From assembly GCF_000220525.1 (NCBI RefSeq), contig NZ_AFPK01000014.1, positions 62,001 to 126,000 on the forward strand: a stretch of DNA of 64,000 nt, written 5' to 3'. Made by a program: the position numbers and the translations under genes. This document shows, one piece after another, positions 8,543 to 24,625 of the stretch. A model generated the notes under the pieces. The model was not told the DNA's origin, made no database searches, and saw only the letters and a program-made list of their open reading frames with translations. Source of the DNA: Ochrovirga pacifica (GTDB lineage Bacteria; Bacteroidota; Bacteroidia; Flavobacteriales; Flavobacteriaceae). Within the stretch, counting starts at the first letter, position 1, and every line of letters begins with the position of its first letter.

Positions 8543-9310
8543 CTAAGGCTGTTTTTCACTTAAATATTTCCAATAACGTTTAGGCACATGTTGTATGTGT
8601 AGTTTGGTGTTTTTTCTAGACTCAATATTCGTACTTTTAAAATAATCTTTCCACAATTGTTGAAACTCCAGTTCTATAGGTGCAAAAATTTCATCAGAAG
8701 TTTGTGTGGGGTCAAAATTGGAATTGAATTCTAAATGGATAACTTCTACTTTGTGTAAATCATAAAACAATCCATAATTTCTTTTCCAATCGTAAATAAT
8801 CCATTGCTGGTCTGCGTATCTGTTTTTAAAGTGATTGCTAATCAACGAAAGCACATCAAAGTCTGGCGATACAACAGCAAAATACACCCCGTCTTTGGTA
8901 AGTTTAAAGCGCACAAAAGCTTCCATTCTATGTTTTTCCCTTCCTACACTCTTGGCCAATTTGCTAATTTTTAACACAGCAGGATGCCCATAATCCAACC
9001 CTACATTTTCTTTAGAGGCAAGGATATACTGAACGGCTTGTAAAATAATGTTTTCAACTCCCTGAGTTTCACTTAAAAAAGCCGCGTATAACTTATAGGT
9101 TGCTTTATTTTTGGTTTTCTCTTTTAATTTTTTCCAGACCCTGTCCGCTTTGTCCTTGTCACTCATCACATACAAAACCTCTCCAAACAAAACTTGTTGT
9201 TGCTGGTGTTGTTTCTGTATAACAATGTCTTTGAGCTTCAACTCATACACAGTAAAAACAACGGTTAAAAGTCCGTCAAAAGTAGCATCATATGTAACCG
9301 TCTGAATCAT
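8543..9310 (-). CDS. TIGR03915/DUF4130 family putative DNA repair protein
   Basis: This 255-residue cytoplasmic protein contains the DUF4130 core: EAFVRFKLTKDGVYFAVVSPDF, then a segment with NHFKNRYADQQWIIYDWKRNYGLFYD (about residues 130-185). The N-terminal half starts with the family hallmark YDATFDGLLTVVFTVYE. The family is annotated as a putative DNA repair or modification factor because it always travels with a radical SAM/HhH partner and sometimes a uracil-DNA glycosylase domain. Its start codon abuts the stop codon of the radical SAM gene, so the two are translationally linked. The C-terminal tail is short, and there is no fused UDG domain. The reaction is unknown. Confidence 0.85.
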   Translation of the reverse strand: MIQTVTYDATFDGLLTVVFTVYELKLKDIVIQKQHQQQQVLFGEVLYVMSDKDKADRVWKKLKEKTKNKATYKLYAAFLSETQGVENIILQAVQYILASKENVGLDYGHPAVLKISKLAKSVGREKHRMEAFVRFKLTKDGVYFAVVSPDFDVLSLISNHFKNRYADQQWIIYDWKRNYGLFYDLHKVEVIHLEFNSNFDPTQTSDEIFAPIELEFQQLWKDYFKSTNIESRKNTKLHIQHVPKRYWKYLSEKQP

Positions 9311-10576
9311 TTAAGCACCAAATAAAGAAAGCTGATTGTTAAAATTACTACGGTATTTACTTGTAGATTGCTGCTGAATAAGTCCTTTTATTTGATGAGC
9401 AGTTAAATCTTTTCTTTCGAATTTACTAGAAGCACAAGTCATAAAATACTGAGCTCTGTTAAGGGCAATTCCCAACTTTTTTAAATGTTCCCAATTCAGG
9501 TTTCTATGTTTTCTGGCTTGCAAAATTTTAGCAACAGAAGTCATCCCCACCCCAGGAATTCTTGCCAACATTCTTTTATCGGCTTTGTTTACATCCACAG
9601 GAAATTCGTGCAAATTTCTTAATGCCCAGCTAAGTTTAGGATCAATGTCTAAATCTAAAAACTGATGCTGTTCGTTTACAATTTCATCGATATCAAAACC
9701 ATAAAAACGATACAGCCAATCTGTTTGATACAATCTATTTTCTCTCATCACAGGAACGGGAGTGCCAATTTGTGGCAATCGATGATCATGGCTGATGGGA
9801 ATGTATCCAGAATAATACACACGTTTCATTCCGTATTTTTTATACAAAAAATTAGAGGTTTTCATAATCTGTAAATCGTTTTCTCCTGTAGCTCCAACTA
9901 TCATTTGGGTACTTTGACCTGCGGGTGCATATTTGGGAGTGCTTTTGATTATTTTTCGTTCCGATTGGTACTGAATAATTTCGTTTTTAACCTTCTGCAT
10001 CGGTTTTAAAAAATCGGCTTGATTTTTATCGGGAGCTAATAACTTTAGCCCTTGTTTGGTTGGTATTTCAATGTTCACACTCAACCGATCTGCGTACAAA
10101 CCTGCTTCTCTCATCAACTCATCACTTGCTCCTGGTATAGATTTAAGATGAATGTATCCGTTAAAGTTTTCTTCCAATCTCAGCTTTTTTGCCACTGCTA
10201 CCAATCGTTCCATAGTATAATCGGCATTTTTAAAAATTCCCGAGCTCAGAAACAGTCCTTCTATATAGTTTCTTCTGTAAAAATTCAGAGTCAAATCAAC
10301 CACTTCTTGCACTTTAAAAGCTGCTCGTTTGATATCATTACTACTGCGTGTTACACAATAAGCACAATCAAAAATACAGTGATTGGTTAACAATATTTTT
10401 AGCAACGACACACAACGTCCATCTTGGGTATAGGTATGACAAATTCCAGATTTAGAAGCATCTCCCAACCCTTTATTTTTATTCTTTCGGTTGCTACCGC
10501 TAGATGAACAAGAGACATCGTACTTGGCAGCATCGGCCAAAATTTTTAATTTTTCTTGAATACGATCAAAAGACAT
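9311..10576 (-). CDS. Putative DNA modification/repair radical SAM protein (TIGR03916 type)
   Basis: This is a 421-residue cytoplasmic radical SAM enzyme. The cluster-binding motif is C-x3-C-x2-C in LTNHCIFDCAYCVTRSS (residues about 67-83), preceded by the conserved block GICHTYTQDGRCVSLLKIL. The C-terminal third carries a helix-hairpin-helix DNA-binding motif (NKADKRMLARIPGVGMTSVAKIL, about 331-353 by count). Radical SAM plus HhH plus an adjacent DUF4130 partner defines the family. Its role in DNA repair is predicted rather than demonstrated. It is immediately upstream of the partner gene with zero spacing and forms a two-gene operon. The ATG at 10576 gives a standard N-terminus. Confidence 0.88.
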   Translation of the reverse strand: MSFDRIQEKLKILADAAKYDVSCSSSGSNRKNKNKGLGDASKSGICHTYTQDGRCVSLLKILLTNHCIFDCAYCVTRSSNDIKRAAFKVQEVVDLTLNFYRRNYIEGLFLSSGIFKNADYTMERLVAVAKKLRLEENFNGYIHLKSIPGASDELMREAGLYADRLSVNIEIPTKQGLKLLAPDKNQADFLKPMQKVKNEIIQYQSERKIIKSTPKYAPAGQSTQMIVGATGENDLQIMKTSNFLYKKYGMKRVYYSGYIPISHDHRLPQIGTPVPVMRENRLYQTDWLYRFYGFDIDEIVNEQHQFLDLDIDPKLSWALRNLHEFPVDVNKADKRMLARIPGVGMTSVAKILQARKHRNLNWEHLKKLGIALNRAQYFMTCASSKFERKDLTAHQIKGLIQQQSTSKYRSNFNNQLSLFGA

Positions 10577-10670: not shown

Positions 10671-11537
10671 TTATTGAGATCGCATTGGAATGCGTTGGTA
10701 GGATTTTCTATATTTTGAAGGAGACATCTTCATGTTTTTTTGAAATTGTCGATGAAAAAAAGTCAAATTATTATAACCCACTTTGTAACCAATTTCTGAT
10801 ATTGACAAGTCGGTATCGATAAGCATTTTGCAGGCAATACTAATTTTGTATTCATTCAAAAAAGTAAAAAATGAGGTGTGAAATGTTTTTTTAAAAAATC
10901 GGGAAAAAGTATCACTACTCATGTTCATCACCTCAGAAATATCATCAATCGTAATTTTATTTAAGTAGTTCTCTTTTAAATAATCATACACCACATTGAT
11001 ACGTTCACTTTCTTTATACGATAAACTTTTAGTAAAATTAGCTCCTGCCAACAAATTAAACTGAGTTGTAACAGCCAATTTTTGTAATACTTTCATAAAA
11101 AGGAGTAAGCGTTCAAAAGGTTTCATAGCAACCATTTTTAACAACATAGGTTTTATTTCTAAAGCCAAATTCACATCAAAACGGATGCCTTGTTGCGATC
11201 TGCTTAGCAAGTCTTTTATGTATTTCATTTCTTCCTTGTCTAACCAGTGTTTTAACAAATCTTCTCGCCATTGTATTACAATACATTCCACATCTTCTGT
11301 TTGTTCTCCGATGGTTTTCCAGCAATGAGGCAGATTAGCTCCTACCATTACCAAATCGTCATTATCAAAACTCTCTATACTATTCCCCACATAACGTACT
11401 CCCGTACTTTTTACAATATAAGTCAGCTCATATTCTTCGTGAAAATGCCATGCAGCAGGAAACTCTTTTTCCTGAAACAACACGGTTCTAAAAGAACTCC
11501 CTGAAGAGGGAACTATCTTATGATATTTTGCTTTCAT
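10671..11537 (-). CDS. AraC-family transcriptional regulator
   Basis: This is a 288-residue one-component regulator. Its N-terminal cupin domain includes WHFHEEYELTYIVKSTG and the segment GANLPHCW, as expected for a sugar-binding AraC arm. Its C-terminal AraC DNA-binding domain (about residues 185-280) has two helix-turn-helix units: ITIDDISEVMNMSSDTFSRF and DLSISEIGYKVGYNNLTFF. It is transcribed divergently from the dehydratase gene that opens the sugar catabolic operon, with 176 bases between the starts. This is the classic arrangement for a regulator of the adjacent pathway. The inducer is probably a sugar or sugar acid of that pathway (inference). Confidence 0.9.
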   Translation of the reverse strand: MKAKYHKIVPSSGSSFRTVLFQEKEFPAAWHFHEEYELTYIVKSTGVRYVGNSIESFDNDDLVMVGANLPHCWKTIGEQTEDVECIVIQWREDLLKHWLDKEEMKYIKDLLSRSQQGIRFDVNLALEIKPMLLKMVAMKPFERLLLFMKVLQKLAVTTQFNLLAGANFTKSLSYKESERINVVYDYLKENYLNKITIDDISEVMNMSSDTFSRFFKKTFHTSFFTFLNEYKISIACKMLIDTDLSISEIGYKVGYNNLTFFHRQFQKNMKMSPSKYRKSYQRIPMRSQ

Positions 11538-11713: not shown

Positions 11714-12802
11714 ATGTCCAAAGACATTGCCATTAGGGAAGCCAAAATTTATAAAGCCATTGCTCCGTTAAAAAAACCCATATCGGATGCTACACACACC
11801 ATTACCGAAATTTCTTTCTTAGTCTTAAGAATTCAACTAGAAAACGGAGTAATTGGTGAGTCATACTTACTGTCCTTTCAGTATTCACCCAATGCCATCG
11901 CAGGAGCATTAAAAGATGCCATCCCTTATATTATTGGACACAAAACCAATGAAATGGGAATTGTGTATAACAAATTAGACGATTTGGCAGAGTACTTTGG
12001 AAACCAAGGAATTAACCGTTGGGCACAAGCTGCTGTAAATATTGCTATGTGGGATGCTTGGGGAAAAACGCTGAATCAACCTGTTCATAAAATCTTAGGA
12101 GTACATCAAGAAAAGGTATCTATTTATGGTAGTGGTGGATGGATTTCCTATTCTGTGGACGAGCTAATAGAAGAGGTAACCGATTATGCAAATCGTGGAT
12201 TTAAAGCGGTTAAAATAAAAGTAGGATCGCCAAAAGTAGCTACCGACTTAGAACGTTTGCGCTTGGTGCGTGAAGCCGTAGGAAATAAGGTAGACATTAT
12301 GATGGATGCCAATCAGGGAATGGACTTACCTTCTGCCATGAAACTAGCTAGAGGTGCCAAAGAACTAAATATCAACTGGTTTGAAGAACCTGTAAATCAT
12401 CAAAACTTTCAAGCTTTTGAACTTTTAAAAACACAAGCAGGAATATCTTTAGCTATGGGAGAGCGTGAATACGACACCTTGCCTTTAAGAGAGCTTGTAA
12501 CTAGAAATGCCTTGGACATTTGGCAACCCGATATTTTAAGAATTGGAGGAGTAGAAAAATGGAGAGAAAGTGCTGCTTTGGCTCAAAGTTTCAACTTACC
12601 AGTATTGCCACATTATTACAAAGATTACGATGTGCCTTTATTGTGTACTATTTCTAACGGTGTGGGTGCAGAATCTTTTGATTGGGTAGATCCGTTGATA
12701 GACAATCCTATGGTTATTCAAGACGGTTTTGCCAAACCTCATGATTTACCAGGTTGGGGATTCAATTTTATAGAGGATACATTAACCGAAATTAAATTCT
12801 AA
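11714..12802 (+). CDS. Enolase-superfamily sugar-acid dehydratase (mandelate racemase/MLE type)
   Basis: This 362-residue cytoplasmic enzyme has an N-terminal capping domain and a (beta/alpha)7-beta barrel. Catalytic features are visible: K167-x-K169 in VKIKVG, metal ligands D198 (MMDANQG), E224 (WFEEP) and E250 (MGERE), and a His at 300 (VLPHYY) with D273 before it. These are the MR-subgroup Lys and His/Asp bases. Family members dehydrate aldonates to 2-keto-3-deoxy acids; close functional options are L-fuconate or L-galactonate dehydratase. Another option is 3,6-anhydro-L-galactonate cycloisomerase, which is also an enolase-superfamily enzyme. It is shorter than classical L-fuconate dehydratase (about 430 residues). 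It heads the operon, and its stop codon overlaps the SDR start by one base. The exact substrate is uncertain. Confidence 0.85.
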   Translation: MSKDIAIREAKIYKAIAPLKKPISDATHTITEISFLVLRIQLENGVIGESYLLSFQYSPNAIAGALKDAIPYIIGHKTNEMGIVYNKLDDLAEYFGNQGINRWAQAAVNIAMWDAWGKTLNQPVHKILGVHQEKVSIYGSGGWISYSVDELIEEVTDYANRGFKAVKIKVGSPKVATDLERLRLVREAVGNKVDIMMDANQGMDLPSAMKLARGAKELNINWFEEPVNHQNFQAFELLKTQAGISLAMGEREYDTLPLRELVTRNALDIWQPDILRIGGVEKWRESAALAQSFNLPVLPHYYKDYDVPLLCTISNGVGAESFDWVDPLIDNPMVIQDGFAKPHDLPGWGFNFIEDTLTEIKF

Positions 12803-13563
12803 TGAACTTAAACGTATTTTCCTTAAAAAATCAAAGAGTCTTAGTTACAGGAGGTGGAACTGGAATTGGTTTGGGGATTTCCAAAGCGATGATAGAAGCG
12901 GGTGCTAAAGTCGTTATTACGGGTCGTAGAGAAGAAGTATTGCAAGAAGCAGTTGAGGAACTGGGAGCCAATGCATCTTATAGAGTCAACGATATTACAG
13001 ACAGAGCTAGTATTCCTGTCTTGGTTTCGGATATAGAAACTAACGAAGGACCTATTGATATTTTGGTAAACAATGCTGGAATTCATCACAAAGCGTGGGC
13101 ACAGGATACTACGGATGAAGATTTTGAACGTATTATACAAACCAACCTCATTAGTGTGTTTTCTCTAACTCGTGAATGTGCCAAATATATGCTAAAACGT
13201 AAAAAAGGAAGCATAATTATGATTGGTTCTATGGCAGGTTTGTTTGGAATAGACAGAGTAATTGCCTATAGCGCATCTAAAACAGCCTTAACAGGATTGG
13301 TGAATAGTTTAACAGCAGAATATGCTAAAGACAATGTTAGAGTAAACGCTATTGCTCCAGGGTGGATTACATCGAATATGTTTTTAAATGCAGTGAACAA
13401 AGACCAAGCTCGTAAACAACAAATTACCAATCGTATTGCCATGGATCATTTTGGGACTACCGAAGATATTGGGAATGCAGCCGTGTTCCTAAGTTCACAA
13501 GCTGCCAAATATATTACAGGGGTTATTTTACCTGTAGATGGTGGTGCAACGGTGAATTTTTAG
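12802..13563 (+). CDS. SDR oxidoreductase (gluconate 5-dehydrogenase/KduD-like)
   Basis: This is a 253-residue NAD(P)-dependent short-chain dehydrogenase. It shows the Rossmann motif TGGGTGIGLG near the N-terminus, the NNAG motif (about residue 90), a catalytic Ser in IGSMAG and the YSASK Tyr-x3-Lys pair. The C-terminal segment ITGVILPVDGGATV is also typical. The N-terminal FSL-x-n-TGG pattern resembles IdnO (5-ketogluconate reductase) and KduD (2-keto-3-deoxygluconate 5-dehydrogenase), which act at C5 of sugar acids. Its start ATG overlaps the dehydratase stop (TAATG), so the two are coupled. In context it could reduce a 2,5-diketo-3-deoxy acid or oxidise a 2-keto-3-deoxy acid; this is an inference. 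Confidence 0.85.
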   Translation: MNLNVFSLKNQRVLVTGGGTGIGLGISKAMIEAGAKVVITGRREEVLQEAVEELGANASYRVNDITDRASIPVLVSDIETNEGPIDILVNNAGIHHKAWAQDTTDEDFERIIQTNLISVFSLTRECAKYMLKRKKGSIIMIGSMAGLFGIDRVIAYSASKTALTGLVNSLTAEYAKDNVRVNAIAPGWITSNMFLNAVNKDQARKQQITNRIAMDHFGTTEDIGNAAVFLSSQAAKYITGVILPVDGGATVNF

Positions 13564-13583
13564 AGACACACAGTGTCTTTTTT
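13564..13583 (+). terminator. Small hairpin with T-run inside the catabolic operon
   Basis: AGACAC and GTGTCT form a 6-bp stem with a 3-base loop, followed by six Ts, directly after the SDR stop codon. The 107-base gap before the next gene makes partial termination or attenuation possible. Confidence 0.5.
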
Positions 13584-13670
13584 CAATAACGTAGTTGTGA
13601 AAAAAACAGGACACAAATAACTAAGACAAAGCTTGCAGCCTAAGGCCTACAGCACAAAGCAAACAAAAAA

Positions 13671-14612
13671 ATGATAAAACCAACATACATACAAGGAGAC
13701 TCAAGTAAAAGCCCTTTTTTTAACAATCAAAGCCGATTGGTTTATGGTACTTCTGGACTCGGAGGTGTTTGGGGAGCGGTAAAAGAATCTGAATCTATTG
13801 AAGCACTGCTGTACGCACTAGAAAACGGAATTTCTGTTTTTGATACCGCTCCATCCTACGGAGAAGCTGAAAATTACCTAGGAAAAGCATTAAAGCAATG
13901 GAAAGGTACAAGACCTTTTGTGAGCACCAAAATTGGACGATTGAAAGGAGCAGATGCTTTTGACACAAAGTTGGATTATACTCCAGATGGATTAAAACGC
14001 AGCATAGAGAATAGCTTAGAAACGTTGGGACTTTCTAAAGTTGACTTGTTATTTCTGCACGAGCCACAACTAGTGCCTTTGGACAAGATGGATGAAATTT
14101 TAGACACGCTTAAATCATTCAAAGCTCAAGGAATGGTTGATAGAATTGGCGTAGGAGGAAATCCATCAGAAGAATTTAAACCTTACATTACCAAAGAAAA
14201 TTTTGATGTTGTTTCTGGTTTTTTAAAACTAAATGCTTGCAACCTATCGGTCTTTAATGGTGAAATTCAACAATATCAAAAAGAAAACATTGGATATTAT
14301 GCTGCTTCTGCCCTACACTTTTCTTTACTAGGAAATCGTTTTCAGAAATATGTAGATGAGGGAGTTGACGGTGAGTGGATCACCCAGCAAGATTTACAAA
14401 ATGCCATCAAAGTAAACGAGATTGCCAAAGAGCTAGATACACCCTTGGCTACTCTAGCCCAACGATATTTATTTTCTGTAAAAGAAGCCGACAGAGTAGT
14501 TATGGGAGCTAGAACTCCAGCACAAATAAAGGCTACTATTGCCGATTGGAATTTAGGAAAATTACCAGAAGATATTTTTGATAAAATCACACACATCATC
14601 ACCAAAAAATAA
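13671..14612 (+). CDS. Aldo/keto reductase, probable L-fucose/L-galactose 1-dehydrogenase
   Basis: This is a 313-residue AKR-family enzyme. The catalytic tetrad is readable: Asp and Tyr in VFDTAPSYGEAE, Lys in FVSTKIGR and His in LLFLHEPQ. The opening GTSGLGGVWG and the overall length match D-threo-aldose 1-dehydrogenase (L-fucose dehydrogenase) and related L-galactose dehydrogenases, which oxidise the sugar at C1 to the aldonolactone with NAD(P). It sits between the SDR and the Zn dehydrogenase genes, and 4 bases separate its stop from the next start. It would supply the lactone/aldonate substrate for the dehydratase at 11714-12802; no lactonase gene is visible in the operon. Substrate preference cannot be read from the sequence. 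Confidence 0.82.
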   Translation: MIKPTYIQGDSSKSPFFNNQSRLVYGTSGLGGVWGAVKESESIEALLYALENGISVFDTAPSYGEAENYLGKALKQWKGTRPFVSTKIGRLKGADAFDTKLDYTPDGLKRSIENSLETLGLSKVDLLFLHEPQLVPLDKMDEILDTLKSFKAQGMVDRIGVGGNPSEEFKPYITKENFDVVSGFLKLNACNLSVFNGEIQQYQKENIGYYAASALHFSLLGNRFQKYVDEGVDGEWITQQDLQNAIKVNEIAKELDTPLATLAQRYLFSVKEADRVVMGARTPAQIKATIADWNLGKLPEDIFDKITHIITKK

Positions 14613-14616
14613 GCTT

Positions 14617-15633
14617 ATGAAAGCAGTTCGTTTAAAACAACCTGGGGAATGGGAAACGCTGGAAATAGTACAACCCACCACTAATTTAGCAAGTGGACAG
14701 GCCTTGTTAAAGGTGAAAAAAATAGGAGTTTGTGGAACAGATTTACATGCCTACAAAGGGCAACAACCTTTTTTTGAATATCCAAGAATATTAGGTCATG
14801 AATTGGCGGTAGAAATTGTAGCCATTGCCGACGATGTGACCAACGTACAGGTAGGAGACCGATGCTCGGTAGAGCCTTACTACAATGAAGTTATTGGACA
14901 AGCGGTGCGAAGAGGGAAAACCAATTGTGGAGAACACTTAAAAGTACTGGGGGTACATGTAGATGGAGGAATGCAAGAGTATTTTGTATATCCTGCGGAG
15001 TTTTTACATGCAACCAATTCTTTGTCAGACGATCAGTTGGCTATGATAGAACCTTTAGCAATTGGTTGCCATGCAGTAGATAGAGCTGACATTAAGGAAG
15101 ATGATATTGTACTTGTAATTGGTGCAGGTCCTATTGGTTTAGGAACCATTCAGTTTGCACAGCTAAAAGGAGCAAAAGTTATTGCTATGGATATAGACGA
15201 TGCCAAACTGGAAAAGTGTAAAAAAATCACAAAGGTAAAAGACACAATAAACGCTTTAGGCAATGTAGAAGAGGATTTAAAAACACTATTAAACGGAGAC
15301 TTGCCTACGGTCATCTTAGATGCTACGGGAAGTCCAAAATCTATGATGAATACTTTTAACTATGCAGCAGCAGGTGGCACAATTGTGTTTATTGGATTGT
15401 TTATGGGTGATGTTGTTTTTCACGATCCTTCTTTTCACAAAAAAGAATTGACTCTAAAAGCAAGTAGAGCGGCTATGGGAAGTGATTTTGGGCGTATTAT
15501 TCGCTTGATTGAAGCCGGCAAAATAGATGCAAGTTCTTTTATTACGCACAGAATTCCGTTTGATGCAGTTCCTGATGAATTTGAAAAACTATATCAAGAA
15601 CCCAATCTTATCAAAGCCATTATAGAACTATAA
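14617..15633 (+). CDS. Zinc-type alcohol dehydrogenase, YjjN/LgoD-like (L-galactonate oxidoreductase family)
   Basis: This is a 338-residue medium-chain dehydrogenase. The catalytic zinc site is present: GVCGTDLHAYKG supplies Cys, GHELAVEI supplies His-Glu. The NAD motif is GAGPIGLG. Recalled similarity to E. coli YjjN (L-galactonate 5-dehydrogenase) is strong along its length: NQPFF-like QQPFFEYPRILGHE, GKTNC...GVHxDGG and FVGLF-like IGLFMGD blocks. The four-Cys structural zinc loop is degenerate: only the Cys of GKTNC remains, replaced by YYNEVIGQAVRR. I chose the ATG at 14617 (MKAVRLKQPGEW) because the upstream in-frame start would overlap the previous gene. It likely oxidises C5 of an L-galactonate-type acid or its 2-keto-3-deoxy derivative (inference). 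Confidence 0.85.
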   Translation: MKAVRLKQPGEWETLEIVQPTTNLASGQALLKVKKIGVCGTDLHAYKGQQPFFEYPRILGHELAVEIVAIADDVTNVQVGDRCSVEPYYNEVIGQAVRRGKTNCGEHLKVLGVHVDGGMQEYFVYPAEFLHATNSLSDDQLAMIEPLAIGCHAVDRADIKEDDIVLVIGAGPIGLGTIQFAQLKGAKVIAMDIDDAKLEKCKKITKVKDTINALGNVEEDLKTLLNGDLPTVILDATGSPKSMMNTFNYAAAGGTIVFIGLFMGDVVFHDPSFHKKELTLKASRAAMGSDFGRIIRLIEAGKIDASSFITHRIPFDAVPDEFEKLYQEPNLIKAIIEL

Positions 15634-15643
15634 ACTATACCTT

Positions 15644-16903
15644 ATGACCTCATCAAAACAAAATAACAAACAGTTTTTAGCTCCATTAATTATCGTTATG
15701 GCCTTGATGTTTTTCTGGAATTTAGCCCGAAACATTAATGACGTATTAATTCCCCACTTAAAAAGAGCTTGTCAACTAACCGATTTCCAATCCTCATTGG
15801 TACAATCAGCTTTTTTTGGAGCTTATTTTATCATGGCTCTACCAGCAGGTTGGTATATCCAAAAAAAAGGATACCGTCAAGGAATGGTCGCAGGTTTATT
15901 AATTGCTGCCACAGGAGCATTTTTATTTTATCCTGCAGCAGAAACTAGAATTTATCCATTTTTCTTAGTGGCCTTATTTGTAATGGCAGCAGGTTTTGCA
16001 GTTCTAGAAGTAACCGCCTCACCGTACATCACCAAACTAGGAAAACCCGAAGGGGCTTCTAGCCGATTGAGTATGGCAGCAGCTATTGGTTCTGTAGGAG
16101 CTACCGTGGCTCCTGTATTGGCATCACTCCTATTTTTACACGAAGTAGATGTGCCCCAATCGACTATTGATACGTATACACCTAATCAATTAGAAACTTT
16201 TTTGTCTGAAGAAGCCGCTTTGGTAAAACCTCCGTATTTGATATTGACAGGAATTTTAGTTGCCATTGCTTTGGTGGTTATTTTCATCAAACTACCAAAA
16301 ATTGAAGACGAACAAGGAGGAGCTAAAAAACCTTTGTTAGACATTTTAAAATTTAAACATACATTGTATGGTGTAGGAGCTGAATTCTTTTATGTAGGTG
16401 CCGAAGTGGGAATTGTAAGTTTCATCATCCGTTATGCTAAATGGTTTCAAATTCCAGAATTAACAGAGCAAAAAGCAGCACAGTTTATTACTGCTTTTAT
16501 GGGACTGGTTTTACTAGGTAGATTGTTGGGAGTCTATATTTTAAAAAAATTCCAACCTCAAAATGTATTGGCTTTTTGTAGCATTAGTGCTTTTGCAATG
16601 GTTACACTTGCCATAGTTTCTAACGGCTATTTTTCTTTGACTTGTTTGGCAGTAGTAGGTTTGTTTACCTCTATCGTGTATCCTATTATTTTTAGTTTAA
16701 GCATGAAAGACTTAAAAGAATACACCAAAACAGGATCATCAGTATTCCTATTAGGAATTGTAGGTGGTGCCATTGTTCCTCCACTAATGGGATATATATC
16801 TGATACGGCTGGAATTAAATTTTCATTTGTAATTCCATTAATATGTTATGTGTACTTATTATTCTTTGCAATTAAAGGCCACAAAGTTAAAATTAAAGCA
16901 TAA
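15644..16903 (+). CDS. FucP-type sugar:H+ symporter (MFS)
   Basis: This 419-residue inner-membrane transporter has about 12 hydrophobic helices. Family landmarks are visible: NDVLIPHLK in TM1-2 (equivalent to the proton-coupling Asp region of E. coli FucP), and FAVLEVTASPYITKLG with the conserved Glu in TM4. E. coli FucP accepts L-fucose, L-galactose and D-arabinose, so the substrate here is likely a sugar of that stereochemistry. The gene is 10 bases after the Zn dehydrogenase and 4 bases before the mutarotase, clearly within the operon. It would import the monosaccharide released in the periplasm by the exported glycosidases. I leave the symbol blank because the substrate may not be fucose. 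Confidence 0.87.
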   Translation: MTSSKQNNKQFLAPLIIVMALMFFWNLARNINDVLIPHLKRACQLTDFQSSLVQSAFFGAYFIMALPAGWYIQKKGYRQGMVAGLLIAATGAFLFYPAAETRIYPFFLVALFVMAAGFAVLEVTASPYITKLGKPEGASSRLSMAAAIGSVGATVAPVLASLLFLHEVDVPQSTIDTYTPNQLETFLSEEAALVKPPYLILTGILVAIALVVIFIKLPKIEDEQGGAKKPLLDILKFKHTLYGVGAEFFYVGAEVGIVSFIIRYAKWFQIPELTEQKAAQFITAFMGLVLLGRLLGVYILKKFQPQNVLAFCSISAFAMVTLAIVSNGYFSLTCLAVVGLFTSIVYPIIFSLSMKDLKEYTKTGSSVFLLGIVGGAIVPPLMGYISDTAGIKFSFVIPLICYVYLLFFAIKGHKVKIKA

Positions 16904-16907
16904 ATAG

Positions 16908-17570
16908 ATGGATGCAATACAATTTCGTCGCTTTACTTATTTGGTTTCTGATGTTGATATTTCTAGTTTAACAATATCTAAGGAAACAAAAGAACGTTTA
17001 GAAATAGCGGGGATTTACCAATTTGAAATCTACCAGAAAGAGAATAACTATTTTATATTGGTTGATACCAAAATAGCTTACGATAGTTATGTGGTTCACA
17101 AAATATGTTCGGAGCTAGGCATTAAGTTGCCTTCTTTTTCTTTTGAGGAGGAGCCTTTGGAACGTATTTATGAATTTGAGCAACAATCTGTTTATAAAGC
17201 TAAAGATGGACAGTTAAAAACAACTGTGGCTCCTTACAAAAGATTTGTTTGGACGTTGTTACTCCAAGAAGATCCTGAATTAATGGCTGAGTATAAGAGA
17301 GTTCATAGTATGGGGCAAGCTTGGCCAGAAGTCACTGCCAATATGAAAACAGTAGGAGTAAAGGATATGGAGATTTACCTATCAGGAACCCAAGCTATTT
17401 TAATTATGGATACTGTTCCCAACTTTGATTTAGAAAAAATAGGTCCCAAATGGCAACAGCTACCAAGAGAAACAGAATGGCAAGAATACGTGGCTAAATT
17501 TCAGAGAACAAATCCAGAAAGCTCCATTCAAGAGAAGTGGCAAGATATGACCTTAATTACATCAAAATAA
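16908..17570 (+). CDS. RhaM-like sugar mutarotase with an extra N-terminal domain
   Basis: The C-terminal half (about residues 109-205) matches the L-rhamnose/L-fucose mutarotase family (DUF718). It reads KRFVWTLLLQEDPELMAEY followed by RVHSMGQAWPEV, which retains the catalytic His and the WPE motif. The family interconverts sugar anomers and is normally about 104 residues. Here 220 residues include about 108 extra N-terminal residues (FRRFTYLVSDVD...), which may be a diverged second ferredoxin-like domain. It sits between the permease and the GH29 gene (4 and 21-base gaps). It probably speeds anomer conversion of the imported sugar before C1 oxidation. There is no signal peptide, so it is cytoplasmic. 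Confidence 0.8.
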   Translation: MDAIQFRRFTYLVSDVDISSLTISKETKERLEIAGIYQFEIYQKENNYFILVDTKIAYDSYVVHKICSELGIKLPSFSFEEEPLERIYEFEQQSVYKAKDGQLKTTVAPYKRFVWTLLLQEDPELMAEYKRVHSMGQAWPEVTANMKTVGVKDMEIYLSGTQAILIMDTVPNFDLEKIGPKWQQLPRETEWQEYVAKFQRTNPESSIQEKWQDMTLITSK

Positions 17571-17591: not shown

Positions 17592-19109
17592 ATGAAAAAA
17601 ATAATAGGAGCATTGGCATTGGTGGCTTTAGCTGCGTGTCAACCTAACAAAAAAGAAGCCTCTAAAGAATCAGAAAAACAGACATTTACTTACGAAGAAA
17701 ACTGGGAAAGTTTACAAAACTACCAAATTCCACAATGGATGAAAGATGCCAAATTTGGAATCTTCATTCACTGGGGTCCCAATTCAGTTGCAGAAAAATA
17801 TACCGATTGGTATCCACGCTGGATGTATTCTGACAATGGAGTTGCAAACCCGCAAACAGGAAAAGCTGTGAACGGAAAACCACATCCTGCAGTAGCTTAT
17901 CACAAAGAAAAATTTGGAGATCAAAAAGACTTTGGTTACAAAGATTTGATACCAATGTGGACCATGGAGAACTTCAATCCAAAAGAATGGGTAAATTTGT
18001 TTAAACAAGCAGGAGCACAATATGTAGTACCTGTAGCAGAGCATCACGATGGATTTGCATTGTACAACTCATCCATTACACCTTGGAATGCAGTAGCCAT
18101 GGGACCTAAACGAGATGTATTAAAAGAGTTAACTGATGAAATAAAAAAACAAGGCCTGATTTGTGGAGTAAGCTCTCATTTGGCCTTTAACTACAACTTT
18201 TACAACCAGCAACCGTATTTTGACAATTCCAATCCTAAGTATGCTGATTTGTATGCACCTCCTCACCAAATGGGAGATTCTGTAAGTGCGGAGTGGTTGG
18301 CAAAAACATGGTGGCCAAGAACCAAAGAAATTATAGACCAATACCAACCTGATATTTTATGGTTTGATTTTTATTTGGACAGACCTGAATTTGTTCCGTA
18401 TCATAAAAAACTAGCTGCTTACTACTACAACTCAGGGCTACAAAGAAATACAGACGTAGTTTTACAAACCAAAAACTACAAATTTGAGTCGTACAAAAAA
18501 GGTACGCACATGTTAGACTTAGAAAGGTCTAAAATGAATGCCATCAAAAAAGAATACTGGCAAACAGACACTTCAATAGGAAAAAACTCGTGGTACTATG
18601 CAACCAACTGGATTCCAAAATCTGCAGAAGATTTAGTCGCAGATTTGGTAGATATTGTAAGCAAGAACGGTTGTTTGCTATTGAATATTGGACCTAGAAA
18701 AGATGGAATTATCCCAGACGATCAGAAAAAAACACTTTTGGATATAGGACGCTGGTTAACAACCAACGGTGAAGCAATTTACGGAGCTACTTATTACGAT
18801 GTGTATGGTGAAGGACCTACCCAAACTGCAACAGGTCATTTGTCTGAGAGTAAAAACAAAGGATTTACACCTGCAGATATCCGCTTTACAAAAAGCAAAG
18901 AAGGAACTTTGTATGCAACCGTATTAAAAACACCTCAAGAAGATATTCATATCAAGTATTTAACAGATGCTAAAATTCAAATTAAATCTATTGAATTGTT
19001 AGGATACAATGGAAGCATTTCTTTTGAGCAATCAGCAAACGGAACTACCATTAAATTACCAAAAGGAGTGGATTTAGATTATGCATGGGTATTTAAGATT
19101 TTAAAATAA
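17592..19109 (+). CDS. GH29 alpha-L-fucosidase/alpha-L-galactosidase lipoprotein
   Basis: This is a 505-residue exported lipoprotein (lipobox ...ALAAC, Cys16). GH29 landmarks are present: KFGIFIHWGPNSVAEKY, the AEHHDGFALY motif, MGPKRD, the nucleophile region DILWFDFYLD with Asp259, and WQTDTSIGKNSWYY. GH29 retaining enzymes cleave alpha-L-fucosides, and some members act on alpha-L-galactosides in porphyran degradation. The neighbouring GH16, GH2 and sulfatase genes suggest an agar-type galactan, so alpha-L-galactosidase activity is a realistic alternative. A C-terminal beta-sandwich follows the barrel (about residues 400-505). It opens the exported-enzyme half of the operon. Confidence 0.88.
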   Translation: MKKIIGALALVALAACQPNKKEASKESEKQTFTYEENWESLQNYQIPQWMKDAKFGIFIHWGPNSVAEKYTDWYPRWMYSDNGVANPQTGKAVNGKPHPAVAYHKEKFGDQKDFGYKDLIPMWTMENFNPKEWVNLFKQAGAQYVVPVAEHHDGFALYNSSITPWNAVAMGPKRDVLKELTDEIKKQGLICGVSSHLAFNYNFYNQQPYFDNSNPKYADLYAPPHQMGDSVSAEWLAKTWWPRTKEIIDQYQPDILWFDFYLDRPEFVPYHKKLAAYYYNSGLQRNTDVVLQTKNYKFESYKKGTHMLDLERSKMNAIKKEYWQTDTSIGKNSWYYATNWIPKSAEDLVADLVDIVSKNGCLLLNIGPRKDGIIPDDQKKTLLDIGRWLTTNGEAIYGATYYDVYGEGPTQTATGHLSESKNKGFTPADIRFTKSKEGTLYATVLKTPQEDIHIKYLTDAKIQIKSIELLGYNGSISFEQSANGTTIKLPKGVDLDYAWVFKILK

Positions 19110-19118
19110 AAATAAACG

Positions 19119-20939
19119 GTGTTAAATAGTAAGAGTTTATTATCAAAGATGTTGTTAGGGCTACTATTGTTGGTCTTAACAACATCTTTTTGTTTTAAGG
19201 CGATGGCTCAGAAAAAGTCAGAAAGGCCTAATGTAATTGTTATAGTGTCTGATGACCAAGGCTATGGAGATTTAAGTTGTCATGGAAATCCATATATCAA
19301 AACTCCAAACATGGATCAGCTGCATGCAGAATCTGTTCGTTTTACAGATTTCCATGTAGATCCCACATGTGCTCCAACCCGTTCCGCTTTAATGACAGGT
19401 AAATATTCACATCATGTAGGAGTGTGGCATACGGTATGTGGAGGAAATCACCTAAGAAGCACAGAGAAAACAATGGCGGATGTTTTTAAAGCATCAGGTT
19501 ATAGAACAGCTCTTTTTGGGAAATGGCATTTAGGAGCTAATTATCCCTACAGACCTATGGATAGAGGTTTTGATGAATGGTTAGGTAACGGTGATGGTGG
19601 TACAGGAACTACTGACGATTGGTTTGATAATGATCGTATAAATGATTATTACTGGCACAACGGAAAGCGAGAAAAACATGAAGGTTTTGCACCCGATGTA
19701 TTTTTTAATAAGGCGATAGATTTTGTAAAAGAAGATCACAAAGATCCTTTTTTTATATATGTAGCTACTTATTTGCCACACAATCCTCATTCTGTTCCAG
19801 ATCCTAAACTGGCTGAAATTTACGATGAAAAAGTATTCAAACACACAGCCTATTTCTTTGCCGGAATCAATAGAGTAGATGAGAATATAGGGAAATTAAG
19901 AAAAGCGCTAGAAGCATCTGGAAAATCAGACAATACCATTTTAATTTTTATGTCTGACAACGGAGGAACTGCAGGGGTTAAGCTTTACAATGCAGGAATG
20001 AGAGGTAAAAAAGGACAGCCTTACGAAGGAGGGCATAGAGTTCCGTTTTTTATTCATTGGCCTAACGGGAATTTAGCGCATGGAAAAGATATAGCAAGCT
20101 TAACGGCTCATATAGATGTACTACCTTCTCTAGTAGATCTATGTAATTTAAAGACGACCCAAGAAACACAATTTGATGGGAGAACTTTTAAAAATCAATT
20201 GTTCAATCCAACAGCCAAGTTAGCTCATCGTACCTTATTTGTAGAATCTCAAAGAACTTTTGAAGCGCAAGCGTGGAAAAATACTTCGGGGATGTATGAA
20301 CAATGGAGATTGGTGAATAATAAAGAGTTGTATGATCTTTCTAAAGACCCTAGTCAACAAAAAAATGTGATCGATGCGCATCCAGAAATAGCTGCTAAAA
20401 TTCGTAAGGAGTTTACAGATTACTGGAATAAGGTTACACCTAACGATCGTGAACTACCTAGATCCGTAGTAGGAAATTCTAAAGACCAAGAGACTTTTTT
20501 AACATCTTCTGATTGGTATTTACCTAAAGTGCCTTGGAATCATGCACAGATTGCAGAAGGAAAACCTTTGTCTGGTGCCTGGGATGTTACTGTTGAAAAA
20601 GCGGGAACTTACAGAATTGAATGTAGAAGGTGGCCTAGAGAAGCCAATGCAACCATTTCGGGAGTACCCAACTTTAATAAAAAAGTAGATGCTTGGTCTA
20701 GAGATGGAAAGGTAGATAGGTTGTTGTATGGACGTAAAATGAAAGCATTACCTGTGAAAACAGTGAGTCTTACTGTTGGAAAACAACAAAAATCAGCAAG
20801 TGTTACTACAGAAGACACGCACATTTCTTTTGATGTAGAATTACCTAGGGGAGATACTAAAATTAAAGGAGAGATGTTAGATGCTAATGGAAATTTGATA
20901 GCCGGTGTTTACTATGTATATCTCTCTAAATTAAAGTAG
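19119..20939 (+). CDS. Formylglycine-dependent arylsulfatase (S1) with C-terminal beta domain
   Basis: This 606-residue exported sulfatase has the metal/FGly environment NVIVIVSDDQGYGD and the maturation motif CAPTR (Cys84 counted from the GTG start). Other conserved parts are GKWHLG and MSDNGG. The catalytic module ends near residue 470; the remaining 130 residues (from VPWNHAQIAEG) form a beta-rich appendage. The start is GTG at 19119; an ATG at 19149 would also leave a good signal peptide (LLGLLLLVLTTSFCFKAMAQ), so the start is uncertain. An FGly-generating enzyme must act before or during export; none is encoded here. It follows GH29 by 9 bases. It probably removes an exposed sulfate from galactan oligosaccharides; position specificity is unknown. 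Confidence 0.87.
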   Translation: MLNSKSLLSKMLLGLLLLVLTTSFCFKAMAQKKSERPNVIVIVSDDQGYGDLSCHGNPYIKTPNMDQLHAESVRFTDFHVDPTCAPTRSALMTGKYSHHVGVWHTVCGGNHLRSTEKTMADVFKASGYRTALFGKWHLGANYPYRPMDRGFDEWLGNGDGGTGTTDDWFDNDRINDYYWHNGKREKHEGFAPDVFFNKAIDFVKEDHKDPFFIYVATYLPHNPHSVPDPKLAEIYDEKVFKHTAYFFAGINRVDENIGKLRKALEASGKSDNTILIFMSDNGGTAGVKLYNAGMRGKKGQPYEGGHRVPFFIHWPNGNLAHGKDIASLTAHIDVLPSLVDLCNLKTTQETQFDGRTFKNQLFNPTAKLAHRTLFVESQRTFEAQAWKNTSGMYEQWRLVNNKELYDLSKDPSQQKNVIDAHPEIAAKIRKEFTDYWNKVTPNDRELPRSVVGNSKDQETFLTSSDWYLPKVPWNHAQIAEGKPLSGAWDVTVEKAGTYRIECRRWPREANATISGVPNFNKKVDAWSRDGKVDRLLYGRKMKALPVKTVSLTVGKQQKSASVTTEDTHISFDVELPRGDTKIKGEMLDANGNLIAGVYYVYLSKLK

Positions 20940-20951
20940 TAATATTTATAA

Positions 20952-22070
20952 ATGAATAAAATAGTATACATATCATCTCTTTTAACTTTATTGATTTCTT
21001 GTGGTCAAAAAGCAAAACAAGACGAAAACGTAAAATTAGCCACTACAGATAATTTTAAAGTGGAACTAGGAAGAGTTTCTAAACAATCTGTCTTTAAAGA
21101 CCGAGATGATATAACCGTATGGGGAGCTTCAACCGTAAAAGGTGAAGATGGTTTGTATCATATGTTTTATTCTCGTTGGAAAAAAGAGTTAGGTTGGGCT
21201 TGGGTAACTCATTCAGAGATTGCTCATGCTGTATCCACATCTCCTTTTGGTCCTTTTAAATTTAAAGACGTTACTTTTTCTGCTCGTGGTGCTGAATATT
21301 GGGATGGACTGTGTACGCATAATCCAACGGTTCATAAATTTGATGGGAAGTACTATTTGTATTATATGGGAAATACTGGTGATGGAGTGAATCCTTGTGT
21401 GCCTGGTAAGATTAAATACAATTGGACACATCGTAACAATCAACGAATTGGTGTAGCTGTTGCTGATGATCCTAATGGACCTTGGCAACGTTTTGATAGC
21501 CCATTGATAGATGCCAGTGGAAATGAAAATGCTTTAGATGCTTTATTGGCCAACAATCCGTCCATAGCAAAAGGACCTGATGGTAAGTATGTGATGGTTT
21601 ATAAAGCTGTTGGTAAAAAGATAAAACGAATTTCAGGAGGGCCTGTAGTACATTGTGTAGCTACGGCTGATAGTCCAATGGGACCTTTTGTAAAACATAA
21701 CGAACCTATTTTTAAAGCTCAAGGGACAGATTTCCCCGCTGAGGATCCTTACATCTGGTATCAAGAAGGAAAGTTCAGAGCCATTGTAAAAGATATGCAT
21801 GGTGCATTTACAGATGCTGGACAAGCCTTGGTTTTATTTGAATCTATTGATGGTTTTGATTGGAAGTTGTCTAAAAACCCACTGGTTTCCAAACTACAAA
21901 TCCAATGGGAAGACGGTAGTATTCTAAAATTAAAGCATTTGGAAAGACCCCAAATTTATTTAGAAAATGGAAAACCACTGGCCTTATTCTGTGCTGCAGA
22001 TACTACGGATGTAAAAGGAGTTTTGCATTCATGGAATGTGCAAATACCAATTAAAGCAGGAAAAAACTAA
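20952..22070 (+). CDS. GH43/GH117-like five-bladed propeller hydrolase, lipoprotein
   Basis: This 372-residue exported lipoprotein has lipobox ...LLISC (Cys17). The blades show repeated GxYYLYY-type strands: GLYHMFYSRW, FDGKYYLYYMG, GPDGKYVMVYK and QEGKFRAIVKDM. Acidic residues lie at the positions expected for an inverting or retaining propeller glycosidase: Asp52/Asp53 in RDDITVWG and Glu264 in AEDPYIW, reminiscent of the GH43 Asp/Glu arrangement. The lack of close match to any named subfamily I can recall makes the exact family and substrate uncertain. It is tightly packed between the sulfatase (12 bases) and GH2 (23 bases) genes, so it very likely cleaves one linkage of the same polysaccharide. 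Confidence 0.65.
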   Translation: MNKIVYISSLLTLLISCGQKAKQDENVKLATTDNFKVELGRVSKQSVFKDRDDITVWGASTVKGEDGLYHMFYSRWKKELGWAWVTHSEIAHAVSTSPFGPFKFKDVTFSARGAEYWDGLCTHNPTVHKFDGKYYLYYMGNTGDGVNPCVPGKIKYNWTHRNNQRIGVAVADDPNGPWQRFDSPLIDASGNENALDALLANNPSIAKGPDGKYVMVYKAVGKKIKRISGGPVVHCVATADSPMGPFVKHNEPIFKAQGTDFPAEDPYIWYQEGKFRAIVKDMHGAFTDAGQALVLFESIDGFDWKLSKNPLVSKLQIQWEDGSILKLKHLERPQIYLENGKPLALFCAADTTDVKGVLHSWNVQIPIKAGKN

Positions 22071-22093: not shown

Positions 22094-24625
22094 ATGAAAA
22101 TCAATTTCTATACTTTACTCGCATCCGTTCTCTTGCTATTTTCTTGTGCAAAGCAAGAGGTAAAAGCACCTAGAACTGTAGAAGATTTTAACGCTAATTG
22201 GAAATTCAGTAAAGAAGTCCAAATGGAAGCTACAAATCCTACTTTTGATGATCGTAGTTGGCAGGTAGTACAATTACCTCATGATTGGACTATTTTGTCA
22301 GGCTATCAAAAAGAAGGGACTGCTGCAAGTACTGGGTTTACTACAGGAGGCATTGGCTGGTACAGAAAGAGTTTTACAATTCCTAAAACTGATAAAGAAA
22401 AAAACATTTGGATTGAGTTTGACGGTATATATAACAATACAACCGTATGGATTAATGGTCACAAATTAGGTTTTAGACCCAACGGATATGTTAGTTTTTC
22501 TTATAATTTATCCGATTATTTGCGTTTTGGAGAAAAAAATGTGATTGCGGTTAAAGTAGATCATACCAATTATGTAGACTCTAGATGGTACACAGGTTCT
22601 GGAATTTATAGAGATGTACGCTTGGTAAAAACTTCTAAAACCCATATTCCTCAATGGGGAGTAAAAATTACAACACCCTACGTAACCAATAATGAAGCAA
22701 TTGTACAAATAGCAACCAAAGTAGCAGGTTCTTCTAAAACCATTACAATGGATATTAACATTATAAATAGTGAAAACCAAGTTGTTGCCAAGTTAAAAGA
22801 TTTGCTTTTTGATACCAAGTCTCAGTTTGTACAAAAAATAAAGATTTCAAACCCAAAACTATGGGGAATTGCAAACCCTAATTTATACGCTGCTGAAATT
22901 CTGGTTAAGGAAAATGGTGTGCTTGTAGATAAGGTAACAGAGAGTTTTGGTATTAGAAGTATTGAATTTACTGCTGACAAAGGATTTCTGCTCAACGGAA
23001 AATCGGTAAAAATCAAAGGGGTAAATTTACATCATGATGCTGGAGCAGTAGGAGCGGCTGCTACCAAGGCAACTTGGGAATATCGAATTAAAAAACTAAA
23101 ATCTATTGGAGTCAATGCCATTCGTATGGCTCACAATCCACATTCACCATTACTAATGGAAGTATGTGATGAGCAAGGGATGTTGGTGATGAACGAGTTT
23201 TTTGATGAGTGGCACCATGCAAAAGATAAAAACAAAACCTGTTTGGGTTGCGATGTTGCCAAAGAAGGAGACAAAGGTTATAGCAAGGTGTTTTTAGACT
23301 GGGCAGAAAGAGATTTAAAAAGTTTGATTCGTCGAGATTACAATCATCCGTCCGTTATTATGTGGAGTATTGGGAACGAAATTGAGTGGACGTTTCCTTA
23401 TTATTCAAAAGCTTACGACGAGATAAATCCCAATGCGATTCCCTATATAAGTGTTCCCGAGTTTGATGCAGAAAAAATCAAACCTGTATTCGACAAAATA
23501 AGTGGAGGAATTGACTCCTTAGCGCTGGTTGCAAAGCAATTGTCTAAATGGGTAAAAGAAGAAGACACAACTCGTCCCGTAACTTGTGGTAGTGTACGCC
23601 CCTCTATTTCTATGGCAACAGGTTATGGAGATGCTGTAGATGTAATGGGCTTCAATTACAGACCTCATAACTACGACATTGCTCACAAAACCTATCCAAA
23701 CAAACCGATTATTGGTTCAGAAAACTGGGTAGCCTATTCGGAATGGAAAGCGGTGGCAGACAGAGAGTTTGTTGCTGGAATTTTTATGTGGACAGGTTTT
23801 GCCTACATAGGAGAAGCAGGACCTTGGCCAAGAAAGGGTCTCAATATTTCTTTGTTTGATTTTGCAGGATTTAAAAATCCTCGTGGACATTTTTTTGAAT
23901 GTTTATGGAAACCAACCCCTAAAGTATATATGGTAACCACTCCTGCTAGCGAATCGGAGTTTTCTTACACAAATAAAGAGGGATGGAAATTTAACATGCA
24001 ATACACAGCTCCTCCTGTGTGGAACAAACTACGTTTGTGGGAATGGTACAAAGTCAATGAATATTGGGATTATAAAACTCAAGAACCTATTGTGGTTCAG
24101 GCTTACACCAATTGTGAAGAGGCAGAGTTGTTTTTGAATGGAAAGAGTTTAGGCAAACAACAATTGTCTTCCGTGGTTGATACCGATCATATATTAAAAT
24201 GGTTGGTACCTTATACAAAAGGGGAGTTAAAAGTAGTGGGGTACAACAACGGAAAAATAGTCGATGAATATATGTTGGCCACTACTGGAAAAGTATCAAA
24301 AATAAAGTTGAGCGTTGACAAAACCACCTTGTTAGCAAACGCCTATGATGTGGCTCATGTATCCATACAATTGTATGATGCAGATGGAAATGCAATCAGA
24401 AATAAGGAGCAAGAAGTACGTTTTGAAGTTGAAGGAAATGCTGAATTAGTTGCTGTGGATAATGGTTGGGAAATGAACGTTGCACCTCATAACACCAATA
24501 AAGTAATTACGCATAAAGGAAGAGCACTGGCCATCGTAAAATCGACAAAAGAAAAAGGTAGGGTTACTATTTGTGCAAAAGTAGGGGCTATTACTAGCGC
24601 ACCAATCATCCTGAACATCAACTAA
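22094..24625 (+). CDS. GH2 beta-galactosidase-like lipoprotein
   Basis: This is an 843-residue exported lipoprotein (lipobox ...LLFSC). Domain order is sugar-binding jelly roll (about 25-190), Ig-like sandwich, TIM barrel (about 300-620), then DUF4982-type and C-terminal Ig-like domains (from about residue 660, TTGKVSKIKLSVDKTTLL). The acid/base is Glu429 in WSIGNEIEW and the nucleophile Glu543 in IIGSENW, so both catalytic residues are in place. GH2 exo-enzymes remove beta-linked galactose, mannose or glucuronate; galactose is most likely beside GH16 and GH29. It is an intact member of the exported-enzyme set. Confidence 0.88.
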   Translation: MKINFYTLLASVLLLFSCAKQEVKAPRTVEDFNANWKFSKEVQMEATNPTFDDRSWQVVQLPHDWTILSGYQKEGTAASTGFTTGGIGWYRKSFTIPKTDKEKNIWIEFDGIYNNTTVWINGHKLGFRPNGYVSFSYNLSDYLRFGEKNVIAVKVDHTNYVDSRWYTGSGIYRDVRLVKTSKTHIPQWGVKITTPYVTNNEAIVQIATKVAGSSKTITMDINIINSENQVVAKLKDLLFDTKSQFVQKIKISNPKLWGIANPNLYAAEILVKENGVLVDKVTESFGIRSIEFTADKGFLLNGKSVKIKGVNLHHDAGAVGAAATKATWEYRIKKLKSIGVNAIRMAHNPHSPLLMEVCDEQGMLVMNEFFDEWHHAKDKNKTCLGCDVAKEGDKGYSKVFLDWAERDLKSLIRRDYNHPSVIMWSIGNEIEWTFPYYSKAYDEINPNAIPYISVPEFDAEKIKPVFDKISGGIDSLALVAKQLSKWVKEEDTTRPVTCGSVRPSISMATGYGDAVDVMGFNYRPHNYDIAHKTYPNKPIIGSENWVAYSEWKAVADREFVAGIFMWTGFAYIGEAGPWPRKGLNISLFDFAGFKNPRGHFFECLWKPTPKVYMVTTPASESEFSYTNKEGWKFNMQYTAPPVWNKLRLWEWYKVNEYWDYKTQEPIVVQAYTNCEEAELFLNGKSLGKQQLSSVVDTDHILKWLVPYTKGELKVVGYNNGKIVDEYMLATTGKVSKIKLSVDKTTLLANAYDVAHVSIQLYDADGNAIRNKEQEVRFEVEGNAELVAVDNGWEMNVAPHNTNKVITHKGRALAIVKSTKEKGRVTICAKVGAITSAPIILNIN

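Follow-up and report, generated by a model that had tools for sequence, protein, structure and literature searches.

A putative L-galactose operon beside porphyran-degradation genes in Ochrovirga pacifica

Gene content of the operon

The window analysed here, a stretch of 64,000 nucleotides (64 kb) from contig NZ_AFPK01000014.1 of Ochrovirga pacifica, carries an operon that we tentatively read as a route for L-galactose from porphyran. The genome measures 3.38 Mb in 77 contigs; C67, C73, and C11 are other contigs cited below. Six genes on the plus strand form the operon (11714-17570): an enolase-superfamily enzyme of the mandelate-racemase type (ENO; 11714-12802, 362 amino acids (aa), MR_MLE N and C domains), a short-chain dehydrogenase/reductase (SDR; 12802-13563, 253 aa, adh_short), an aldo-keto reductase (AKR; 13671-14612, 313 aa, Aldo_ket_red), a zinc-dependent alcohol dehydrogenase (ADH; 14617-15633, Zn-ADH family), a FucP-type permease of the major facilitator superfamily (MFS; 15644-16903, 419 aa), and a protein with a C-terminal rhaM (sugar mutarotase) domain (16908-17570, 220 aa, PF05336 at 112-215). 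An AraC-type regulator (HTH_18/HTH_AraC) is encoded divergently on the minus strand (10671-11537), and a homologue lies opposite ENO at all eight other operons described below. The initial annotation had described the four enzymes with their catalytic residues, the permease, and the divergent AraC gene as one operon; open reading frames (ORFs), families, and residues bear this out. The run extends past the end given there (16903), through the rhaM-domain gene and a series of glycoside hydrolase (GH) and sulfatase genes.

The mechanical ORF of the ADH opens at a TTG (14578), and its likely start is the ATG at 14617; in some comparisons the protein was taken one codon late, in scripts with the first residue set to M, and no result was seen to depend on this. 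The permease passes one FucP model (TIGR00885, 313.7 bits, cut-off 280.4) and fails another (NF007524, 313.8 bits, cut-off 427). The rhaM-domain protein has an additional N-terminal half that is faintly similar to its own C-terminal half (34 residues, E 0.007), and its counterpart in Flavivirga rizhaonensis (L033) starts, by eye, like a lipoprotein. A promoter and terminator scan found signals no commoner than in shuffles.

Enzyme families and the porphyran setting

All four enzymes retain catalytic residues, which we take to have their usual functional meaning, as we do the cofactor motifs: ENO has KxK, the metal ligands D/E/E, a late Glu, and a His-Asp dyad; the SDR has S-Y-K as well as the cofactor motif GRR; the AKR has D-Y-K-H; and the ADH has the catalytic-zinc ligands. 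The ADH has an NAD-type Asp and the SDR an NADPH-type Arg. Genes, gene order, residues, and kinships are established directly.

The four best solved relatives of the AKR are all L-galactose dehydrogenases (7lh6, 7smi, 9w6y, and 8scc), and by homology and position it matches the L-galactose 1-dehydrogenase of the tagaturonate route discussed below. The ADH deserves the label "YjjN-like" that it had been given, with 40.5% identity to Escherichia coli LgoD (YjjN); it is 43-44% identical to the ADH of a cluster with UxaA and UxaB on C67 and 28% identical to that of an anhydrogalactose cluster. The label "KduD-like" for the SDR holds as a loose likeness, since the protein does not pass the KduD model (213 bits, cut-off 339). 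No solved structure scores above 166 bits against ENO, and its best curated model, L-talarate/galactarate dehydratase, reaches 211 bits, far under the cut-off of 500; on sequence comparison, its group is without a close solved relative. The substrate of L-talarate/galactarate dehydratase resembles L-galactonate. A plasmid search for ENO relatives gave 314 records, all below 60% identity, the 40 listed being at ~30-33%, and the two surroundings read gave no helpful context.

Directly downstream, also on the plus strand, lies a GH29 gene (17592-19109) whose product is a probable exo-alpha-L-galactosidase by comparison with solved structures: of the BpGH29 structures, 7snk scores 383 bits and 7ljj, named exo-alpha-L-galactosidase, 372, versus 245 for the next fucosidase. 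It is followed by a sulfatase (19119-20939, PF00884), a GH43/GH117-like protein with weak matches to anhydro-alpha-L-galactosidases (20952-22070, PF04616), a GH2 beta-galactosidase (22094-24625; 708 bits to 5t9a, which we take to be BpGH2C of Bacteroides plebeius, next 475), a GH16 beta-porphyranase (24753-25598; 177 bits to porphyranase B 3juu versus 51 to agarase C), and a second sulfatase (25601-27169, PF00884). A Pfam search even at E 10 found no match for three ORFs downstream of the operon, one of which is the porphyranase, recognised via solved structures.

L-galactose is the likely sugar of the operon, as expected from a GH29 near exo-alpha-L-galactosidase, the porphyranase downstream, and the likeness to the B. 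plebeius porphyran locus. Kinship and context, including the relatives of the AKR, likewise speak for further proposals of the initial annotation, namely L-galactose as the substrate, its predicted oxidation at C1 by the AKR, and a putative inversion at C5 by the ADH and SDR that ends at D-2-keto-3-deoxygluconate (KDG).

Conservation across genomes

The gene order ENO-SDR-AKR-ADH recurs in eight other genomes at 69-94% identity, which argues that the arrangement is not chance. At E 1e-40 the AKR was found in 15 of 397 same-family genomes, O. pacifica included; six of the 15 (O. pacifica, G236, G212, G333, G247, and G177) have this order. Further operons in Wenyingzhuangia heitensis (L031), Lutibacter citreus (L032), and F. 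rizhaonensis (L033) make nine. The contig scan comprised ten loci, with L039 and L040 left out of the analysis, and its closest named AKR match is that of W. heitensis (87%; records very near our genome may be absent). FucP is replaced by another transporter, of the sodium-solute type by eye, in L033 and L045, and a GH29 like that of the window is in view in six of the eight other operons (L045 stops at the contig start).

Six more genomes (G134, G002, G237, G061, G245, and G084) have an AKR of 55-58% identity between FucP and a lactonase, with an LgoD-like ADH and UxaB; UxaA is in view in five of these six clusters (not in L046), and none of the six genomes has ENO. The same position is held elsewhere by an SDR of the type found on C67 (counts ignore kinship). 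The AKR and the C67-type SDR seem to swap places, which supports oxidation at C1 of an L-galactose-like sugar by both. In G320, G224, and G202, an AKR of 40-44% identity adjoins a different enolase. Loci L037, L052, L053, and L054 pair a 40-44% AKR with a different enolase group, in which the dyad His is missing in the one example examined (L053); inspection by eye shows a transporter of the sodium-solute type nearby in L037, L052, and L053, the three loci inspected.

Other sugar routes in the genome

C73 encodes an aldehyde dehydrogenase, an enolase that scores 630 bits against anhydrogalactonate cycloisomerase 5xd7, an SDR, and a Zn-ADH; by sequence this is the anhydro-L-galactose pathway, and the identity of the cycloisomerase is near-certain. 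C11 encodes an enolase, an aldehyde dehydrogenase, a 2-keto-3-deoxy-galactonokinase, and an aldolase, and is probably the anhydro-D-galactose pathway.

The cluster on C67 (1-12407, L013) comprises FucP, an SDR, an amidohydrolase (lactonase), tagaturonate reductase (UxaB, above cut-off), a galactarate/altronate-dehydratase family member (UxaA), a 2-keto-3-deoxy-6-phosphogluconate (KDPG) aldolase (above cut-off), a PfkB kinase (under the KDG kinase model cut-offs), an LgoD-like Zn-ADH, a GH29, and, by eye, a GH2. The aldolase and the KDG-kinase-like gene are of the kinds that the initial annotation had proposed looking for elsewhere in the genome. The GH29 has its best match in L-galactosidase structures (443 bits, versus 288 for the next fucosidase), the SDR scores above the cut-off of the L-fucose dehydrogenase model (354.6 versus 300 bits; only this copy was scanned), and the lactonase falls below the fuconolactonase cut-off. 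L-fucose is a possible substrate for this cluster, given the model that its SDR passes, and C67 may serve L-fucose or general L-galactose use, with the window operon serving porphyran.

UxaA was matched in all 11 genomes searched (the nine operon genomes, G320, and G651). Near it, eight of the nine operon genomes have an LgoD-like ADH (L120 ends at the contig end) and eight a C67-type SDR (not L116 of G333); the kinase is seen in four and the aldolase in five.

A possible pathway and its alternatives

We infer every reaction, the reaction order, the cofactors, and the sugar from sequence, and tentatively favour a porphyran-linked L-galactose operon in which C5 is oxidised before dehydration. 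L-galactose released by the GH29 would be imported via the FucP-type permease and oxidised at C1 by the AKR to a lactone, which would open spontaneously or by the lactonase encoded on C67. The ADH, with NAD, would then oxidise C5 of L-galactonate to D-tagaturonate, the SDR, with NADPH, would reduce this to D-altronate, and ENO would dehydrate D-altronate to KDG, for the C67 kinase and aldolase to finish. The SDR would thus replace UxaB and ENO would replace UxaA, to which they are unrelated. The operon would be a variant of the known L-galactose route with two standard enzymes replaced by unrelated ones. ENO itself may have a new enolase-superfamily function, as a D-altronate or L-galactonate dehydratase, in a porphyran-dedicated L-galactose pathway that needs neither UxaB nor UxaA and stands beside a second cluster for L-fucose or L-galactose.

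If true, this would give porphyran-eating marine bacteria a dedicated route for L-galactose, a main sugar of porphyran, assign a function to an enolase-superfamily group without a close solved relative, and reveal a textbook branch with two of its enzymes replaced by unrelated ones. In the literature consulted on L-galactose and porphyran, which was covered in part, we found no description of the fate of L-galactose inside such bacteria, and no title or abstract opening described this combination of genes (literature on L-galactose, porphyran, D-altronate enolases, and Wenyingzhuangia, mostly without subscription papers).

Several observations favour C5 oxidation of L-galactonate itself. Related AKRs, namely those of 55-58% identity and that of Flammeovirga pacifica, stand in clusters of the established L-galactose route. 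The pairing of an NAD-type ADH with an NADPH-type SDR fits an oxidation followed by a reduction; in Luteolibacter, L-galactonate dehydrogenase uses NAD and tagaturonate reductase NADPH (PMC12632266). In addition, the window ADHs are grouped (99/99) with two Flammeovirgaceae ADHs, their nearest outside relatives, one of which, from Flammeovirga pacifica (L036), belongs to a cluster with lactonase, AKR, FucP, aldolase, UxaA, UxaB, and a kinase, with the AKR beside the lactonase, ADH, UxaA, and UxaB. The other (L034) adjoins an AKR, and no Uxa gene is in view. The AKR-ADH pair is accompanied by UxaA/UxaB in Flammeovirga and by SDR/ENO in our operon, which suggests a module swap. In approximately unbiased (AU) tests on the ADH tree, from which Ec_ahr was excluded, a clade of the window and anhydrogalactose ADHs alone is rejected (p-AU 0.03). 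Like LgoD and LguD (PMC12632266), the ADH more likely acts on L-galactonate to give D-tagaturonate, and the tree is no proof of this.

A number of observations weigh against this pathway. In the ADH tree, which has flagged long branches, the clade of window and anhydrogalactose ADHs is not rejected once the Flammeovirgaceae ADHs are included (p-AU 0.38), and a grouping of LgoD with the window, Flammeovirgaceae, and C67-type ADHs is missing from the best tree and not rejected either (p-AU 0.30). Deep placement of the ADH stays ambiguous in the tree. The structural-zinc cysteines are missing in the window, Flammeovirgaceae, and anhydrogalactose-cluster ADHs and kept in LgoD and the C67-type ADHs, and no functional neighbour of ENO emerges in its tree. 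The operon has no kinase or aldolase gene; UxaB and UxaA lie outside it, on C67, rather than in the same cluster as in the tagaturonate route, and the lactonase, an amidohydrolase on C67, is likewise outside. UxaB and a lactonase are in view near UxaA in all nine operon genomes; with a Uxa-type cluster kept in each, SDR and ENO are not needed to replace UxaB and UxaA, and the apparent swap of AKR and C67-type SDR also indicates that the operon is an addition to the Uxa cluster rather than a substitute for it. A porphyranase like that of the window was found in none of the available flanks of the eight other operons.

The range of ENO points the same way. At E 1e-60 it was found in seven of the 397 same-family genomes (the six operon genomes and G320), in two of 395 genomes of a phylum sample (O. 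pacifica and G651), and in 12 of 294 genomes of the family of G651, where the surroundings were examined in 11 (not in G844) and a distant enolase of G1037 (35% identity) was not counted. No AKR or ADH adjoins ENO in G320 or in 10 genomes of the latter family, and no window-type AKR or ADH was matched beside it in the examined genomes of that family. Its partner there is a window-type SDR in G878 and another SDR in G651, G784, and G918; no matched SDR is in view in G932, G790, G865, G843, G1015, and G970 (cut by the contig end), and the cluster of G865 includes alpha-L-rhamnosidase and GH127 genes. In G320 (L064 1-14420, L073 17697-19987), whose proteins fall weakly among the window-type ones in trees, ENO and SDR open a run of genes on one strand that continues through weakly GH43-like genes, LacZ, glucuronate isomerase, and an MFS transporter and ends in UxaB and UxaA; opposite it lie an aldehyde dehydrogenase nearest semialdehyde dehydrogenases (below every cut-off) and a 391-aa gene of the fumarylacetoacetate hydrolase (FAH) type. 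ENO is therefore not tied to L-galactose across its range.

The only difference between L-galactonate and D-altronate is at C5, and KDG is the end point of either reaction order. The initial annotation had placed dehydration first, with ENO converting L-galactonate to 2-keto-3-deoxy-L-galactonate before C5 oxidation by the ADH and reduction to KDG by the SDR. It was aware of the action of YjjN at C5 of L-galactonate without considering that C5 inversion may precede dehydration, the route given in PMC12632266. We regard its order as rather unlikely, less so than any other alternative but less probable than C5 oxidation first, given the ADH sister in a UxaA/UxaB cluster and the greater identity to the Uxa-cluster than to the anhydrogalactose-cluster ADH. 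The SDR, moreover, falls outside a group of KduD, IdnO, and the anhydrogalactose SDR (starred 97/95, long branches). Yet the same enzyme classes act in dehydration-first order on anhydrogalactonate (PMC5943477), our genome has such a cluster on C73, and the best curated model of ENO, though far above its score in cut-off, is that of an enzyme whose substrate resembles L-galactonate. The clade that joins window, Flammeovirgaceae, and anhydrogalactose ADHs also leaves room for it. The missing structural-zinc lobe had been considered as a mark joining the window ADH to the Uxa-cluster ADHs, and was dropped since the anhydrogalactose ADH has it in common; this absence lowered our confidence in C5 oxidation first and raised it in dehydration first.

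An improbable alternative splits the operon into two half-pathways: AKR and ADH would make D-tagaturonate for UxaB and UxaA of the other cluster to finish, and the SDR, as an aldose 1-dehydrogenase, and ENO, as an aldonate dehydratase, would serve, e.g., D-galactose or L-arabinose. The contexts of ENO and SDR in G320 and the family of G651 leave room for these roles, ENO occurring there with an SDR and without AKR or ADH, the aldehyde dehydrogenase and FAH genes of G320 could be a pentose oxidation set, and UxaA is kept in every operon genome. SDR and AKR are 107 bases apart here, 208 apart in L031, and ~92 in L043, but fewer than 25 in the other six of the nine operons, and in six of the seven same-family ENO genomes AKR and ADH adjoin ENO and SDR. 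The single FAA-hydrolase match of our genome, a short ORF of 205 aa, also speaks against this alternative. A De Ley-Doudoroff route for D-galactose is disfavoured for SDR and ENO, as the 2-keto-3-deoxy-galactonokinase family (PF05035) is missing in seven of the nine operon genomes; it was found in the other two, ours being one, and in 4 of the 21 genomes searched.

It is very unlikely that the operon serves L-fucose, with ENO dehydrating L-fuconate and the SDR oxidising C4 before hydrolysis. FucP, the rhaM domain, and a GH29 would fit L-fucose, and our genome has no match to PF02952 (FucI), but the GH29 is nearer to exo-alpha-L-galactosidase than to fucosidases, the ADH would be left without a role, and L-fucose may belong to C67, given the match of the SDR there to the L-fucose dehydrogenase model. 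The 2,4-diketo route is poorly supported, with no FAH-type hydrolase beside the dehydratase and C4 dehydrogenase in the operon and the one FAA-hydrolase match on another contig. An anhydro-L-galactose pathway with the AKR replacing the aldehyde dehydrogenase would suit the enzyme classes and the red-algal setting, but is extremely improbable, since that pathway is already on C73 and ENO, at 160 bits to 5xd7 versus 630 for the C73 enolase, is ruled out as an anhydrogalactonate cycloisomerase, a placement on which the initial annotation would have given up its proposal.

Other features of the window

Two overlapping ORFs of 348 and 629 aa lie at 27657-30540, the second of which encodes a beta-helix protein that carries a secretion tail; neither had a relative among the ORFs compared, so that one split gene and two genes are not distinguishable. 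A 563-aa protein within the polysaccharide region (34973-36664) has no Pfam match at E 10. Two minus-strand genes (8543-10576) encode proteins of 255 and 421 aa, of which the latter resembles, by eye, a radical-SAM protein.

Comparison with known systems

The published route runs from L-galactonate via D-tagaturonate and D-altronate to KDG and includes the L-galactose route of Phocaeicola (Bacteroides) vulgatus (Hobbs 2014, as cited in PMC12632266). With P. vulgatus (BVU_0219, BVU_0222), Luteolibacter LG18 (lgu), and E. coli LgoD-UxaB-UxaA, the operon shares the L-galactose dehydrogenase kind, and its ADH is 40.5% identical to LgoD; likeness to the BVU and lgu systems is by description, not sequence. 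PMC12632266 places LguA and BVU_0219 with GALDH_ARATH among L-galactose dehydrogenases of the plant kind and describes LguD as distant from LgoD and BVU_0222. The operon differs in that UxaB, UxaA, and a lactonase are absent from it; what it carries is an SDR and a gene of the enolase superfamily.

The anhydro-L-galactose pathway (dehydrogenase, cycloisomerase, C5 dehydrogenase, and C5 reductase; PMC5943477) also combines an enolase-superfamily enzyme, a Zn-ADH, and an SDR in one cluster with KDG as the end product. It differs in using an aldehyde dehydrogenase rather than an AKR, and for the three classes in common, identity to the proteins of the window is 28-37%.

The porphyran locus PUL-PorB of B. 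plebeius contains GH16, S1_11 sulfatase, GH29, SusD, SusC, and GH2 genes, and its sulfatase and GH29 exo-alpha-L-galactosidase act in turn on porphyran oligosaccharides (PMC12316285). No SusD family match was found among the scanned ORFs, a part of those in the window. Clustered GH29, GH2, GH16 porphyranase, and sulfatases are common to both loci, and the window adds a sugar-oxidising operon.

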